Below are positions 39,388-43,733 of a DNA stretch of 43,733 bases, one piece after another; position 1 is the stretch's first letter, and each line of letters starts with the position of its first letter. The notes under the pieces were generated by a model that had not been told where the DNA came from, did no database searches, and saw only the letters and a list, made by a program, of their open reading frames with translations. This DNA comes from Alphaproteobacteria bacterium (GTDB lineage: Bacteria; Pseudomonadota; Alphaproteobacteria; UBA2966; CAIVPW01). The stretch is taken from positions 1 to 43,733 of the forward strand of contig JABHVE010000036.1 of the NCBI GenBank assembly GCA_018658465.1, read 5' to 3'. Position numbers and translations under genes: made by a program.

Positions 39388-39417
39388 GTTAGGCACCCCG
39401 TTTTGGGGTCGCCTAAC
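39388..39417. other. Hairpin between the sugar dehydrogenase and the cupredoxin-like gene
   Basis: GTTAGGC and GCCTAAC form seven outer pairs and CCCC with GGGG four inner pairs, separated by a small A/TC internal loop. No real T-run follows, so it may be a factor-dependent terminator, an operator or a 5' leader structure for the downstream pair. Confidence 0.5.
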
Positions 39418-39461
39418 CTGGGTTCTGTCTTCCTCGAAGACCGAGCACCAAAGCTGGAAAC

Positions 39462-40283
39462 ATGGTCATGGGATCGTTTGGAAATTCGCGTACCTCTTTG
39501 ATGTGGGCTATCGCCTTTTGCGCTGGGTTTTTGACGTTTTTTGGCCCCGGTGTCGATGCCCTGGGTCAAGAGGCCGCCCCGGCAATGCCCATGCCCGAGG
39601 GCGAGCACGACGAACACATGAACATGGCGATGCTGGACATCGAAGTGGACGTCAACGATGCCATGCGTGTGGAGAATGTAACCGGTGGCGCGGCGCCGAC
39701 TGTGACCGCTGGACTTAAACGATCAGCCGACGGCGGATGGGATCTTTCCCTGACCACCGAAAATTTCGTTATGGCAGGCCACGATGCCGAAGGACCCCAT
39801 ATCCCTGGCCAAGGCCAAATTGCCCTGCATGTTAACGGCGCATTCGTAGCGCACCTTATGGGCACCAGCCATCATTTGGATCCCCTGGACGAGGGCGTCA
39901 ACGAGATCGCACTGACCTTGGTCACAATTGATGGGCGCATGTACGCGAACGCCGGGGTCCTGGCCATGGAGCGGTTCTCGGTTCTGGTTTTAGACCGCGA
40001 CCCCAAGCCGGACGCGCCAAAAGCTTCCCTGGCGGTTGATGTCGTCGATGGAATGGAGCCGGAGACGTACCGGATTAATCAAGGCGACCTGGCCGAAATG
40101 CGGTGGACTGTCGCCAGCCCCTTGGTCATTCATCTGCATGGGTATGATGTTGCGGCCCAGGCGCTGCCCCATGCGCCGCTAATTATGGTCATCGAGGCTT
40201 ATGCAGCCGGGCGGTTCGAGATCATGTCCCATTCCGACGAAGGTGAGCTTAACCCGCTGATCTATTTGGAAATCCTACCCTAG
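39462..40283 (+). CDS. Secreted two-domain protein with C-terminal cupredoxin-like domain
   Basis: This 273-residue protein has a signal peptide ending at about residue 35 (DALGQEA). A His/Met-rich linker follows (MPMPEGEHDEHMNMAM), then a beta-rich domain with several His and Met residues (VMAGHDAEGPHIPG, HLMGTSHHLDP). The C-terminal domain (about 185-273) has the cupredoxin-like pattern INQGDLAEMRWTVASPLVIHLHGYDV ... GRFEIMSHSDEGE ... YLEILP. Copper or another metal is likely but not shown. It is transcribed with the polytopic membrane protein 29 bases downstream. I know of no proven function for this pair. Confidence 0.72.
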   Translation: MVMGSFGNSRTSLMWAIAFCAGFLTFFGPGVDALGQEAAPAMPMPEGEHDEHMNMAMLDIEVDVNDAMRVENVTGGAAPTVTAGLKRSADGGWDLSLTTENFVMAGHDAEGPHIPGQGQIALHVNGAFVAHLMGTSHHLDPLDEGVNEIALTLVTIDGRMYANAGVLAMERFSVLVLDRDPKPDAPKASLAVDVVDGMEPETYRINQGDLAEMRWTVASPLVIHLHGYDVAAQALPHAPLIMVIEAYAAGRFEIMSHSDEGELNPLIYLEILP

Positions 40284-40312
40284 TCCGCACATCCCCCGGT
40301 TCAGGCAAAAAC

Positions 40313-41821
40313 ATGCGTAGATTCCTTCACTACTTTGGTGCCGCATTAGCGTCGGCGATTGTTGTTTGGCTCGCATCGCCAGCCGCCGCCCATGGGTTTG
40401 GTCAGCGCTATGATTTGCCGTTGCCGTTGGGGCTTTGGGTGATGGGGGCTGGGGCGACGATCGTACTGACCTTTGCCATCACCGCAGTGTACCTGCGGGA
40501 TGTCCGCACAGATTGGGGGCACCTGGAATTCAACTTGCTGCGGATATCGCTGATCCGCTGGATCGCCCACCCCGGGGTGATCGCGGCAATCCGCGCCCTG
40601 TCTGTCGTGGCCTTTTTGTTCACAATTTATGCCGGGCTAGCCGGCAGCGACAATCCGTACGAAAACCTGATCACAACGATGGTTTGGATAACCTGGTGGG
40701 TGGGGTTCGCGTTCACATGCGCACTGGTCGGGAATTTGTGGGCGCTGGTCAATCCCATACGAACAATTTTCGTTTGGGCGGAGTGGGGATTTTCTCAAGC
40801 GACCGGGGGTGGATCGCTAGCCCGGAACAGGCCCTATCCGCGTGGGCTCCAATCTTGGCCGGGCGTCGTGATTTTTATCGGATTTGCCTGGGCGGAGTTG
40901 GTGTGGGGGGCGAACGATGTGCCGCGGAATTTGGCGATCGCAATTCTCACCTACAGCGCAGTTGCCTGGATAGGAATGTTTATTTGGGGCCGTGACGTTT
41001 GGCTCCGGTATGGCGAGGCGTTCTCCATCGCCTTCGGTATTTTAGCGCGGTTCGCACCGCTGGATGTGCCAATCAAAAGTGATCCGTCCGCGGCACCTGA
41101 ATTAAATCTGCGGCCGCCTGGCGCTGGGCTCAGCGCCGATCGCGCGGTTACTTTTTCGCTTCTTGTTTTCGTCCTGTTGATGTTGGCGACCGTGACATTC
41201 GACGGCTACCTCGAGACACCTTTGTACCGATCAACCGCAGTTGCCCTGTATACCTCCCAATCCCTGGCACCCCTTTTCGAATCGGCCTTCGAAGCCGGGT
41301 TTCCGGTCAATCAAACAGTTCTGACCGGCCAAATGGTACTCATGACCCTGGCGTTTTTGGCCGCCTTTTGGGCGACCAGCTGGGCCATGGTCCGCGCAGC
41401 CTCGCGACGCCCGGGCGCCATCCTTGGGGTTACCACTTACCAGGCAGCCATGGCGTTTGTCTTGACCCTGGTCCCGATTGCGGTGGCGTATCACCTGTCC
41501 CATTATTTGTCCCTGCTGGTGATCAACGGCCAACTGATGATTCCATTGATTTCCGATCCCATGGGGCTTGGGTGGGACTTGTTTGGCACCGTTTCTTATC
41601 GGGTGGATATCGCCGCCATCAGCCCAGCGGTGGTGTGGTACACCGCAATGACGCTGATCGTTATCGGCCATGTCATTGCCGTTGTTTTGGCCCACAGCGT
41701 TGCGATCAGGGTGTTTGGCAGTCGCACTGCCGCCCTAGCCAGTCAAATTCCAATGGTGATCTTGATGGTGTTGTACACGATGCTGAGCCTGTGGATCGTT
41801 GCCCAGCCCATCGTCGGTTAA
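40313..41821 (+). CDS. Polytopic membrane protein of unknown function
   Basis: This 502-residue protein has a signal-like first helix ending AAAHGFGQRYDLPLPLGLW and about eleven further helices. Several helices carry histidines (AYHLSHYLSLLVINGQ, VIGHVIAVVLAHS), which suggests a metal or heme site in the membrane. The N-terminal HGFGQRYDLP pattern is, as far as I recall, that of proteins labelled fenitrothion hydrolase in some databases, but I would not assign that reaction. It is encoded with the cupredoxin-like protein and may form a complex with it. It is convergent with soxA, 24 bases away. Confidence 0.7.
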   Translation: MRRFLHYFGAALASAIVVWLASPAAAHGFGQRYDLPLPLGLWVMGAGATIVLTFAITAVYLRDVRTDWGHLEFNLLRISLIRWIAHPGVIAAIRALSVVAFLFTIYAGLAGSDNPYENLITTMVWITWWVGFAFTCALVGNLWALVNPIRTIFVWAEWGFSQATGGGSLARNRPYPRGLQSWPGVVIFIGFAWAELVWGANDVPRNLAIAILTYSAVAWIGMFIWGRDVWLRYGEAFSIAFGILARFAPLDVPIKSDPSAAPELNLRPPGAGLSADRAVTFSLLVFVLLMLATVTFDGYLETPLYRSTAVALYTSQSLAPLFESAFEAGFPVNQTVLTGQMVLMTLAFLAAFWATSWAMVRAASRRPGAILGVTTYQAAMAFVLTLVPIAVAYHLSHYLSLLVINGQLMIPLISDPMGLGWDLFGTVSYRVDIAAISPAVVWYTAMTLIVIGHVIAVVLAHSVAIRVFGSRTAALASQIPMVILMVLYTMLSLWIVAQPIVG

Positions 41822-41845
41822 GCCGCTGCCGTGGAATCGGTTGAT

Positions 41846-42664
41846 TTAGGGACGCACCGCAGGCGACTCGACGAACAGGCCACGGCCCCGCCAGCGCACA
41901 AAAAAGGTTAAATCCAGCATATCCTCGCTACCGAATTCGAGCGGTTCTGCTTGAACCAGCTCGTTGCACCAGCGGATTTGACGCTGGACCGATGCCAATG
42001 ACTCCCAACGAAGACGGTACGAGGGAAATCCGTTGGACTGGCCTTCCGAAAGTCGGTCTTCCAACCAAGCATTTCCTTTTTGATCTTCATGGCAATCAGC
42101 GCAGGACAAGCTGAGCTTACCGCGTTGCTCTTCGTACAATTCCTGACCATGGTTATAAAACCACTGGGAAATACCCCTGGTATCAACTTCGACCGGCAGA
42201 AGCCGCGACTGATAGGCGACGTATGTCGCCAGCGCCAACATTTCATCCGATTCGTAGGCATACGGTTCGGCTTCCATTTTCCGTTCCCGCATCCAATTTA
42301 TCTGTTCCTCCAGACCGACGATTTCGCCAAATCCAGGGATATTTTCTAGGTACTTCGGGTAACGTGCGGCGATCTTCCACATGCGATCCTCGGCATCGAA
42401 ATGGCAGTCCCCGCAAGATTTTTCCGCGGCACCCTCCACCTTGTTCCAAAGTTCCTCGCCGAGGGCGAGCACAGTCATGCCGGGATTCAGCGAGTCGTCG
42501 TCTTGGAGTGCCTGAATTTCAGGGGTCAAGTATTGGTAGCCTGACATTCGGCCATCCAATTTGGTGTGGTCAACGGCCAGCACGGACGTACTGGCGACCG
42601 TCACAACGGCAATCGCGGCCAGCAGCGCCCGCTTTGGGATCAAACCTGCCACGGATTTGTGCAC
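41846..42664 (-). CDS. soxA: SoxA-like diheme c-type cytochrome
   Basis: This 272-residue periplasmic cytochrome has a signal peptide to about residue 31. Two heme sites are present, C84-GD-C87-H88 and C188-AD-C191-H192. The SoxA hallmark QIRWCNELVQAEPLEFGSEDML holds C233, the position of the active-site Cys persulfide that ligates the second heme. In the first half the matching segment QINWMRERKMEAEP has Met125 instead of Cys. SoxA normally pairs with SoxX to attach thiosulfate to SoxYZ, but no soxX, soxY, soxZ or soxB is in the window. The start is a GTG at 42664, 11 bases after the lipoprotein gene. Confidence 0.85.
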   Translation of the reverse strand: MHKSVAGLIPKRALLAAIAVVTVASTSVLAVDHTKLDGRMSGYQYLTPEIQALQDDDSLNPGMTVLALGEELWNKVEGAAEKSCGDCHFDAEDRMWKIAARYPKYLENIPGFGEIVGLEEQINWMRERKMEAEPYAYESDEMLALATYVAYQSRLLPVEVDTRGISQWFYNHGQELYEEQRGKLSLSCADCHEDQKGNAWLEDRLSEGQSNGFPSYRLRWESLASVQRQIRWCNELVQAEPLEFGSEDMLDLTFFVRWRGRGLFVESPAVRP

Positions 42665-42675
42665 CAGAAATCCAG

Positions 42676-43377
42676 TTAAGGTGTCACCAGCTCGATGGTC
42701 ATGTCGTAGTGCGCTTGCGGCATCCCGCCATGACCCGGCGAGAAACCCAGCACCAGGTTCTGGGCGGCCGGCAGCCCCCCAACCGTGTCGAGTTGGAACG
42801 TCATCTGGGCACCATCAATGAAATTTTGCTGCATGATCATGTAGGCCACGCCGTTGATCATGTCGCCCTCGACTTTAAAGTACGGTCCCATCGGTTCGTC
42901 CTCGGACCGAACCCAAAAAGTGCGGCTGTACTGGGTGACCCCATCTGGCAGATCTGCTAGGCCGGGGGCTGGCCCGTTGGCGACGTCGGAAACCAAATTG
43001 ATTGTGAAGTCATAGTGGGCTTGGGACATTCCGGCATGGCCGGGGGAGAAATTCATCATAATATTTTGGGCGCCTGGCAGCCCGGCAATGACGTCCAGCG
43101 GCAAGGTGATTTCGACGCCATCAATGAAATTCTGCTGCATGACCATGTAGGCCACGCCGGTAACTAAGTCATTCTCAACCTGAAAATACGGCCCCATGGG
43201 TTCGTTTTCGGGCAGAACCCAAAATGTACGGCTGTACTGGGTGACCCCATCTGGCAGATCCCCGATTCCTGGGGGCCCCATGGTCGCTTCCGCCATCTCG
43301 CCATCGACCGCAGCGGTCGTGCAAGCGGCAAGCAAGGCGAAGGACGAAACAAGGAAAATTCTGCTAAGCATGTTCAT
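42676..43377 (-). CDS. Lipoprotein with two tandem copies of one domain
   Basis: From the ATG at 43377 the 233-residue product begins with a lipoprotein signal (FALLAAC; Cys about 19). Two gapless copies of a 91-residue domain follow, each beginning DLPDGVTQYSRTFWV and ending in an AHYD-TI-LV segment; by eye 64 of 91 positions are identical. The domain has conserved MGPYF, GVAYM, MQQNFIDG and FSPGH-GM-QAHYD. The last part resembles TTHB210-like (DUF5602) domains that end in His-rich segments, but that is a weak resemblance. It is first in an operon with soxA. An upstream TTG/GTG extension to 43488 is not supported. Confidence 0.75.
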   Translation of the reverse strand: MNMLSRIFLVSSFALLAACTTAAVDGEMAEATMGPPGIGDLPDGVTQYSRTFWVLPENEPMGPYFQVENDLVTGVAYMVMQQNFIDGVEITLPLDVIAGLPGAQNIMMNFSPGHAGMSQAHYDFTINLVSDVANGPAPGLADLPDGVTQYSRTFWVRSEDEPMGPYFKVEGDMINGVAYMIMQQNFIDGAQMTFQLDTVGGLPAAQNLVLGFSPGHGGMPQAHYDMTIELVTP

Positions 43378-43575
43378 ATATTTGCTCTCGGGTGTCGGGC
43401 GTTGCAAGGGCCGACAAAAAAGAATTTGGGTAATACCTGGGCGGGCAACAAATGGTGCGCTCTGATGCTGCACACAACAAAAAAACAACAGGTTACGTTG
43501 AGTTTTAGTCCCTCCAAAGCAGTGGGCAACCCCATGTCCCGGCAGGTTTCAAAATCCCATCGGTACTGTCAGCCG
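43378..43575. other. 198-bp intergenic region upstream of the lipoprotein-soxA operon
   Basis: It must hold the promoter of the lipoprotein-soxA pair. I see A-runs and a GTTGT-type direct repeat around 43478-43495, but no clear -35/-10 pair and no gene. Confidence 0.4.
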
Positions 43576-43733
43576 CTAGGCATTCAGATGGTGGCATGCC
43601 ACCCGGTGTCCGTTTGCAATCTTGGTTAAGACTGGGACTTCAGCGGCGCAAAGGGCGTCGGCCTTGTGGCACCGCGTTCGGAAATGGCAGCCGCTGGGTG
43701 GGCTAAGAGGCGACGGCAATTCGCCTTCTAGAA
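43576..43733 (-). CDS. Opp/Dpp-type ABC transporter ATP-binding protein, C-terminal fragment
   Basis: Only the last 52 residues lie in the window; the frame is open to the right edge. They read LEGELPSPLSPPSGCHFRTRCHKA ... AAEVPVLTKI ... GHRVACHHLNA, the diagnostic C-terminal extension of OppD/OppF-type ATPases with the Cys residues that bind an iron-sulfur cluster in related proteins. The gene would energise uptake of peptides or another small substrate. It is upstream of the lipoprotein gene on the same strand but 198 bp away, so probably a separate unit. Confidence 0.88.
   Translation of the reverse strand, partial: LEGELPSPLSPPSGCHFRTRCHKADALCAAEVPVLTKIANGHRVACHHLNA

Follow-up and report, generated by a model that had tools for sequence, protein, structure and literature searches.

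A cupredoxin-like gene and a gene for a polytopic membrane protein lie tail to tail with a soxA-like gene and a lipoprotein gene near the end of an alphaproteobacterial contig. The question that this locus raises is whether the four genes encode one redox system or two independent ones. A first-pass annotation of the window (the whole stretch of 43,733 nucleotides analysed here) had proposed a single envelope module that joins copper, c-type heme and possibly thiosulfate or sulfide chemistry.

Layout of the locus

The host assembly is alphaproteobacterial, has a size of 2.05 Mb and is 95% complete. All four open reading frames were present about where they had been annotated. Their positions held overall, but the start given for the cupredoxin-like gene (39388) lay 74 bp too far upstream and is 39462 instead. 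The convergent spacing of 24 bp was correct:

39462..40283, + strand: cupredoxin-like gene, 273 aa
40313..41821, + strand: polytopic gene, 502 aa, membrane protein of an unnamed family
41822..41845, no strand: gap of 24 bp between the stop codons of the convergent pairs
41846..42664, - strand: SoxA paralogue gene, 272 aa, diheme c-type cytochrome
42676..43377, - strand: lipoprotein gene, 233 aa counted from the Met preceding the LAAC lipobox

Export signals are present on all four proteins. A terminator-like or sigma-70-like site was looked for in the gap and none was found. In the following, the two + strand genes are called pair 1 and the two - strand genes pair 2.

Pair 1 is a widespread two-gene module

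Pair 1 is a widespread and so far unnamed module of two genes that are kept side by side. The partner gene encodes a small secreted protein with the motif HLHGYD...GRFPxxxH. A strict motif test, which overlooks longer and truncated partner versions, places it immediately before the polytopic gene in at least 51 of 95 loci; a looser cluster does so in 68 of the 95 (the window is included in the 95). Some polytopic loci have no recognisable partner, and in two relatives it is found several kb away. Homologues of the polytopic protein occur in Proteobacteria, Nitrospinota, Chloroflexota, Actinobacteria and haloarchaea. The family is present in 14 of 61 relatives and in 63 plasmid records, haloarchaea included; for the wider set, 80 named loci were retained from 179 confirmed ones. 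The product name fenitrothion hydrolase, which is in use for proteins of similar appearance, found no support in the literature searched, and the plasmid homologues are annotated as 'hypothetical protein', so that the name was not adopted.

Further secreted proteins were observed near the module. In 18 loci a divergent gene upstream of the pair encodes a secreted protein of ~390 aa (e.g. L096 3268-4443, - strand), which is possibly a third component. Dehalococcoidia/SAR202 loci (L106, L109, L117 and others) encode another secreted protein of ~190 aa, common to 15 loci, about 1.4 kb ahead of the polytopic gene. In several of the same loci the partner has extra domains, one of which has a VPGxGHAHIYVDG motif, as the window's protein and its lake relatives do in their N-terminal domain.

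The polytopic protein

A Pfam scan of 19 polytopic members returned no match, CopD included, and NCBIfam returned nothing beyond one marginal match in one member. A sequence search of the PDB gave no match. The AlphaFold2 model, which was based on 61 sequences from non-plasmid records, reached a pLDDT of 93.7 and a pTM of 0.92 and contains 11-12 membrane helices. Comparing it with the PDB using Foldseek provided no fold match (lowest E-value 0.06; TM-scores not above about 0.2 among the matches listed). Likeness to PmoA or PmoC was found neither by Pfam or PDB sequence matches nor among the fold matches listed. The conserved His residues are the following:

40391..40393, + strand: His27, predicted mature N-terminal residue (cleavage between AAA and HGFG), directly after the signal peptide
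41492..41503, + strand: His394 and His397 (YHxxHY), in a long membrane helix
41669..41695, + strand: His453 and His461, in the next membrane helix

Across 71 aligned sequences His27 (His1 of the mature protein), His397 and His453 are invariant, while His394 belongs to the consensus and is nearly invariant and His461 is kept in at least 90%. The four intramembrane residues are His368, His371, His427 and His435 in mature numbering, and the corresponding model helices span 349-388 and 412-442. This is in agreement with the intramembrane His pairs noticed before, which the model places in two late helices. Such His clusters can also bind heme or zinc. Many Trp, Asp and Asn residues are invariant in the family as well.

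The secreted partner

The cupredoxin-like protein has the following features:

39462..40283, + strand: signal peptide, His/Met-rich linker (residues 42-57) and two domains
40131..40139, + strand: HxH (His224, His226) within the HLHGY motif of the cupredoxin-like domain
40230..40232, + strand: His257, the third conserved His (GRFxxxxH), conserved in at least 90% of the alignment

The N-terminal domain is of unassigned type, and the C-terminal cupredoxin-like domain comprises approximately residues 186-273. His224 is invariant and His226 present in at least 90% of the 38 aligned sequences. A PDB sequence search with the single protein gave no match. The family profile matched chains of Cu nitrite reductase, CuA, nitrosocyanin and laccase with E-values down to 2.8e-8, and its leading named matches were all copper proteins except two designed ones. 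Pfam Cupredoxin_1 (PF13473) is matched by 16 of 38 relatives and not by the window's own copy. The cupredoxin-like fold that had been suggested for this protein is thus backed by the family profile. Its sole Cys, residue 20, lies inside the signal peptide, such that the mature protein has no Cys and hence no type-1 or CuA site.

Function of pair 1

Genes around the polytopic gene were surveyed for functional hints. Among 134 neighbour ORFs, SCO1 (6), CopC (4) and CopD (3) were among the commonest families, as counted with a crude ORF picker and without a control set; c-type cytochromes were recurrent as well. PCu(A)C lies beside the polytopic gene in Sulfitobacter, a single case. In another single case, on a plasmid of Mycobacterium dioxanotrophicus (L082 4983-10563), a small gene followed by the polytopic gene lies just ahead of CAB genes, whose annotation is that of methane/ammonia monooxygenase (subunits C, A and B). 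Many neighbourhoods contain no copper gene and carry nicotinate-type Mo enzymes and branched-chain amino-acid transporters (Rhizobiales, Rhodobacterales).

The cupredoxin fold, the invariant N-terminal and intramembrane His and the copper-trafficking neighbours make copper handling at the cell surface the probable function of pair 1. We infer that the pair serves copper uptake or the loading of a cuproenzyme and would work like YcnI/CopC-CopD. The secreted partner would bind copper through HxH and the third His, and the polytopic protein would receive it at its N-terminal His. The polytopic protein may then carry the copper through the membrane His cluster or hold it there, either for copper uptake or for the loading of an envelope cuproenzyme. 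More tentatively, though we regard it as quite possible, the polytopic protein may found a family so far undescribed, whose members would act in the membrane as transporters of copper or assemblers of copper sites. They would share a fold that the PDB does not yet contain and would accept copper with their N-terminal His. The range of the family would reach from Alphaproteobacteria and Chloroflexota as far as haloarchaea, and it would replace CopD where CopD is missing. A search for CopD in the window's own genome found none.

A different assignment would make the polytopic protein a membrane enzyme, i.e. a heme- or copper-dependent oxidoreductase of which the cupredoxin-like protein forms a subunit, instead of a transporter served by a chaperone. 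The His clusters in two helices together with the many invariant Trp, Asp and Asn residues would suit an enzyme, as would the molybdenum hydroxylases and cytochromes c that are co-located in some lineages. However, stacked bis-His b hemes have a His spacing as in cytochrome b and not one of 3 and 8 residues as seen here. Copper-delivery genes being the recurring neighbours also speaks against an enzyme, and so does the lack of a similar oxidase fold in the PDB. We consider this assignment rather unlikely.

Copper export or detoxification in place of acquisition appears improbable to us: CopC and CopD, which also occur in copper-resistance operons, are among the neighbours, but P-type ATPase and RND efflux families are not among the commonest ones, and the SCO1, PCu(A)C and copper monooxygenase neighbours point to delivery and use.

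The route by which copper reaches bacterial envelope enzymes is poorly known. Pair 1, read as a copper uptake or loading pair, is a concrete and testable candidate, being a conserved module that is uncurated in Pfam and stands beside SCO1, CopC/CopD and copper monooxygenase genes.

Pair 2: a SoxA paralogue and an orphan lipoprotein

The SoxA-like diheme cytochrome was identified correctly in the first place: it scores 184.6 bits against TIGR04484 (cut-off 110), and both CXXCH sites (C84-H88, C188-H192) and the active-site Cys (C233) are intact. In the tree it is sister to the SoxA clade of its family on a long branch (SH-aLRT 92), which indicates a diverged, fast-evolving paralogue. Among eight genomes of its family only this one keeps the window-type paralogue. 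HMM searches detected only two SoxA-type genes genome-wide, the second being located on contig C34. With heme and cysteine sites intact, the window's SoxA is probably still a c-type cytochrome that acts on a thiol or persulfide carrier. Its role is likely that of an accessory or specialised thiol-oxidising cytochrome.

The lipoprotein consists of two tandem repeats, in agreement with the duplicated domain described before:

42985..43263, - strand: lipoprotein repeat 1
42679..42957, - strand: lipoprotein repeat 2

The repeats are identical at 64 of 93 residues (69%). Relatives were sought in 289 alphaproteobacterial and 398 Pseudomonadota genomes and none were found. Likewise there was no plasmid relative and no PDB match (single sequence), and Pfam at E 10 gave only noise. 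A single-sequence structure model had a pLDDT of 31. Since the lipoprotein gene lies 11 bp upstream of soxA, both probably form one operon. At the end of the window (43489-43733) the contig stops 356 bp upstream of the lipoprotein start, such that the - strand operon may continue past the contig end and be cut.

SoxB-less sox clusters

No soxX, soxY or soxZ was found in the window by tblastn, and HMM searches of the whole genome detected no SoxB; both absences had been noted for the window before. A complete sox operon elsewhere in the genome had been considered as the explanation for SoxA. This applies only in part: contig C34 indeed carries soxX, soxY, soxZ and soxA, but no soxB was found and hence no complete Sox system (SoxX, Y, Z, A, B). 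The cluster (L038 1-14000, L058 1-10768) comprises SoxX, SoxZ, SoxA, two SoxY-type genes and a sulfide-dehydrogenase flavoprotein, together with cytochromes c, xanthine-dehydrogenase-like Mo subunits with 2Fe-2S proteins, and sulfatase-modifying-factor-like proteins. Against the 'AACIE arm' model TIGR04487 (cut-off 172) its SoxY-type genes reach only 136 and 110 bits. We infer that pair 2 is probably accessory to this SoxB-less soxXYZA cluster.

SoxB was absent by HMM from all eight family genomes, the window's own included (assemblies 79-98% complete). Among 289 alphaproteobacterial genomes, 51 have a SoxA above cut-off, 24 of them with and 27 without SoxB. For 13 SoxB-less genomes outside the window's family the SoxA region was retrieved. 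Ten of these 13 have a Mo-hydroxylase large subunit and a 2Fe-2S gene beside soxX/soxA, most of the ten also with soxYZ and a sulfide-dehydrogenase gene (loci L196-L203, L206, L207). AACIE SoxY above cut-off occurs in 15 genomes, 14 of which lack SoxB. A Mo enzyme may act where SoxB normally does; literature on an association of Mo hydroxylases with SoxB-less sox genes was looked for and none was found.

One system or two?

If the four proteins formed one envelope redox module, SoxA would pass electrons or sulfur on to the polytopic protein, with first the lipoprotein and then the cupredoxin-like protein as intermediates. The adjacency across a gap of 24 bp and the export signals on all four proteins would fit such a chain. 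However, both SoxA and the polytopic family occur in seven relatives, and in all seven they are on different contigs, i.e. far apart. SoxA and the lipoprotein accompany the polytopic gene only in the window among the 95 polytopic loci, and cupredoxin-like and polytopic genes were found in none of 20 sox loci. In addition, the pairs are convergent and not co-transcribed, the lipoprotein is an orphan, and the Cys-free cupredoxin-like protein offers no type-1 or CuA site for electron transfer. We consider a single module very improbable and its proposal already largely refuted.

The best explanation, which we hold to be fairly probable, is that of two independent operons in tail-to-tail arrangement: a copper-handling pair, and a duplicated SoxA with a lineage-specific lipoprotein. 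The observations of the first-pass annotation are confirmed and its interpretation is partly supported. Copper chemistry and c-heme/sulfur chemistry are each supported separately, but there is no support for a module that joins them: none of the other genomes examined has the two pairs side by side. This negative result illustrates that convergent genes which are adjacent by chance can mimic a new redox pathway.

Comparison with known systems

The SoxA of the window resembles the SoxA of SoxXA (TIGR04484) in being a diheme protein above cut-off with CXXCH sites and the active-site Cys. It differs by its position outside any sox operon, beside an orphan lipoprotein and in a genome in which no soxB was found. 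For the C-terminal domain of the secreted partner, the likeness to cupredoxins (nitrosocyanin, CuA, two-domain laccase, nitrite reductase) is at the profile level; in contrast to these, the Cys ligand is missing, with HxH and a later His in its place.

CopC/CopD, which adjoin some family members, similarly combine a secreted copper binder with a multi-pass protein that has membrane His residues. However, Pfam CopD matches none of the 19 polytopic members, the polytopic fold has no PDB match, and no homology to CopD was found by hhalign of the polytopic protein against three neighbouring CopC-CopD fusion proteins (probability 2.5%).

The nearest functional likeness is provided by YcnI (DUF1775) and YcnJ (CopC-CopD-YtkA) of Bacillus subtilis, for which copper import by exchange between the two has been proposed (PMC12154828, PMC8424229). 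YcnI is cupredoxin-like with an N-terminal-His copper site, and Cu(II) is exchanged between it and the putative importer's CopC domain (PMC12154828). Both systems pair an extracytoplasmic cupredoxin-like protein with a polytopic partner and have an N-terminal His after export. In pair 1, however, this His is on the membrane protein, and there is no CopC or YtkA domain.
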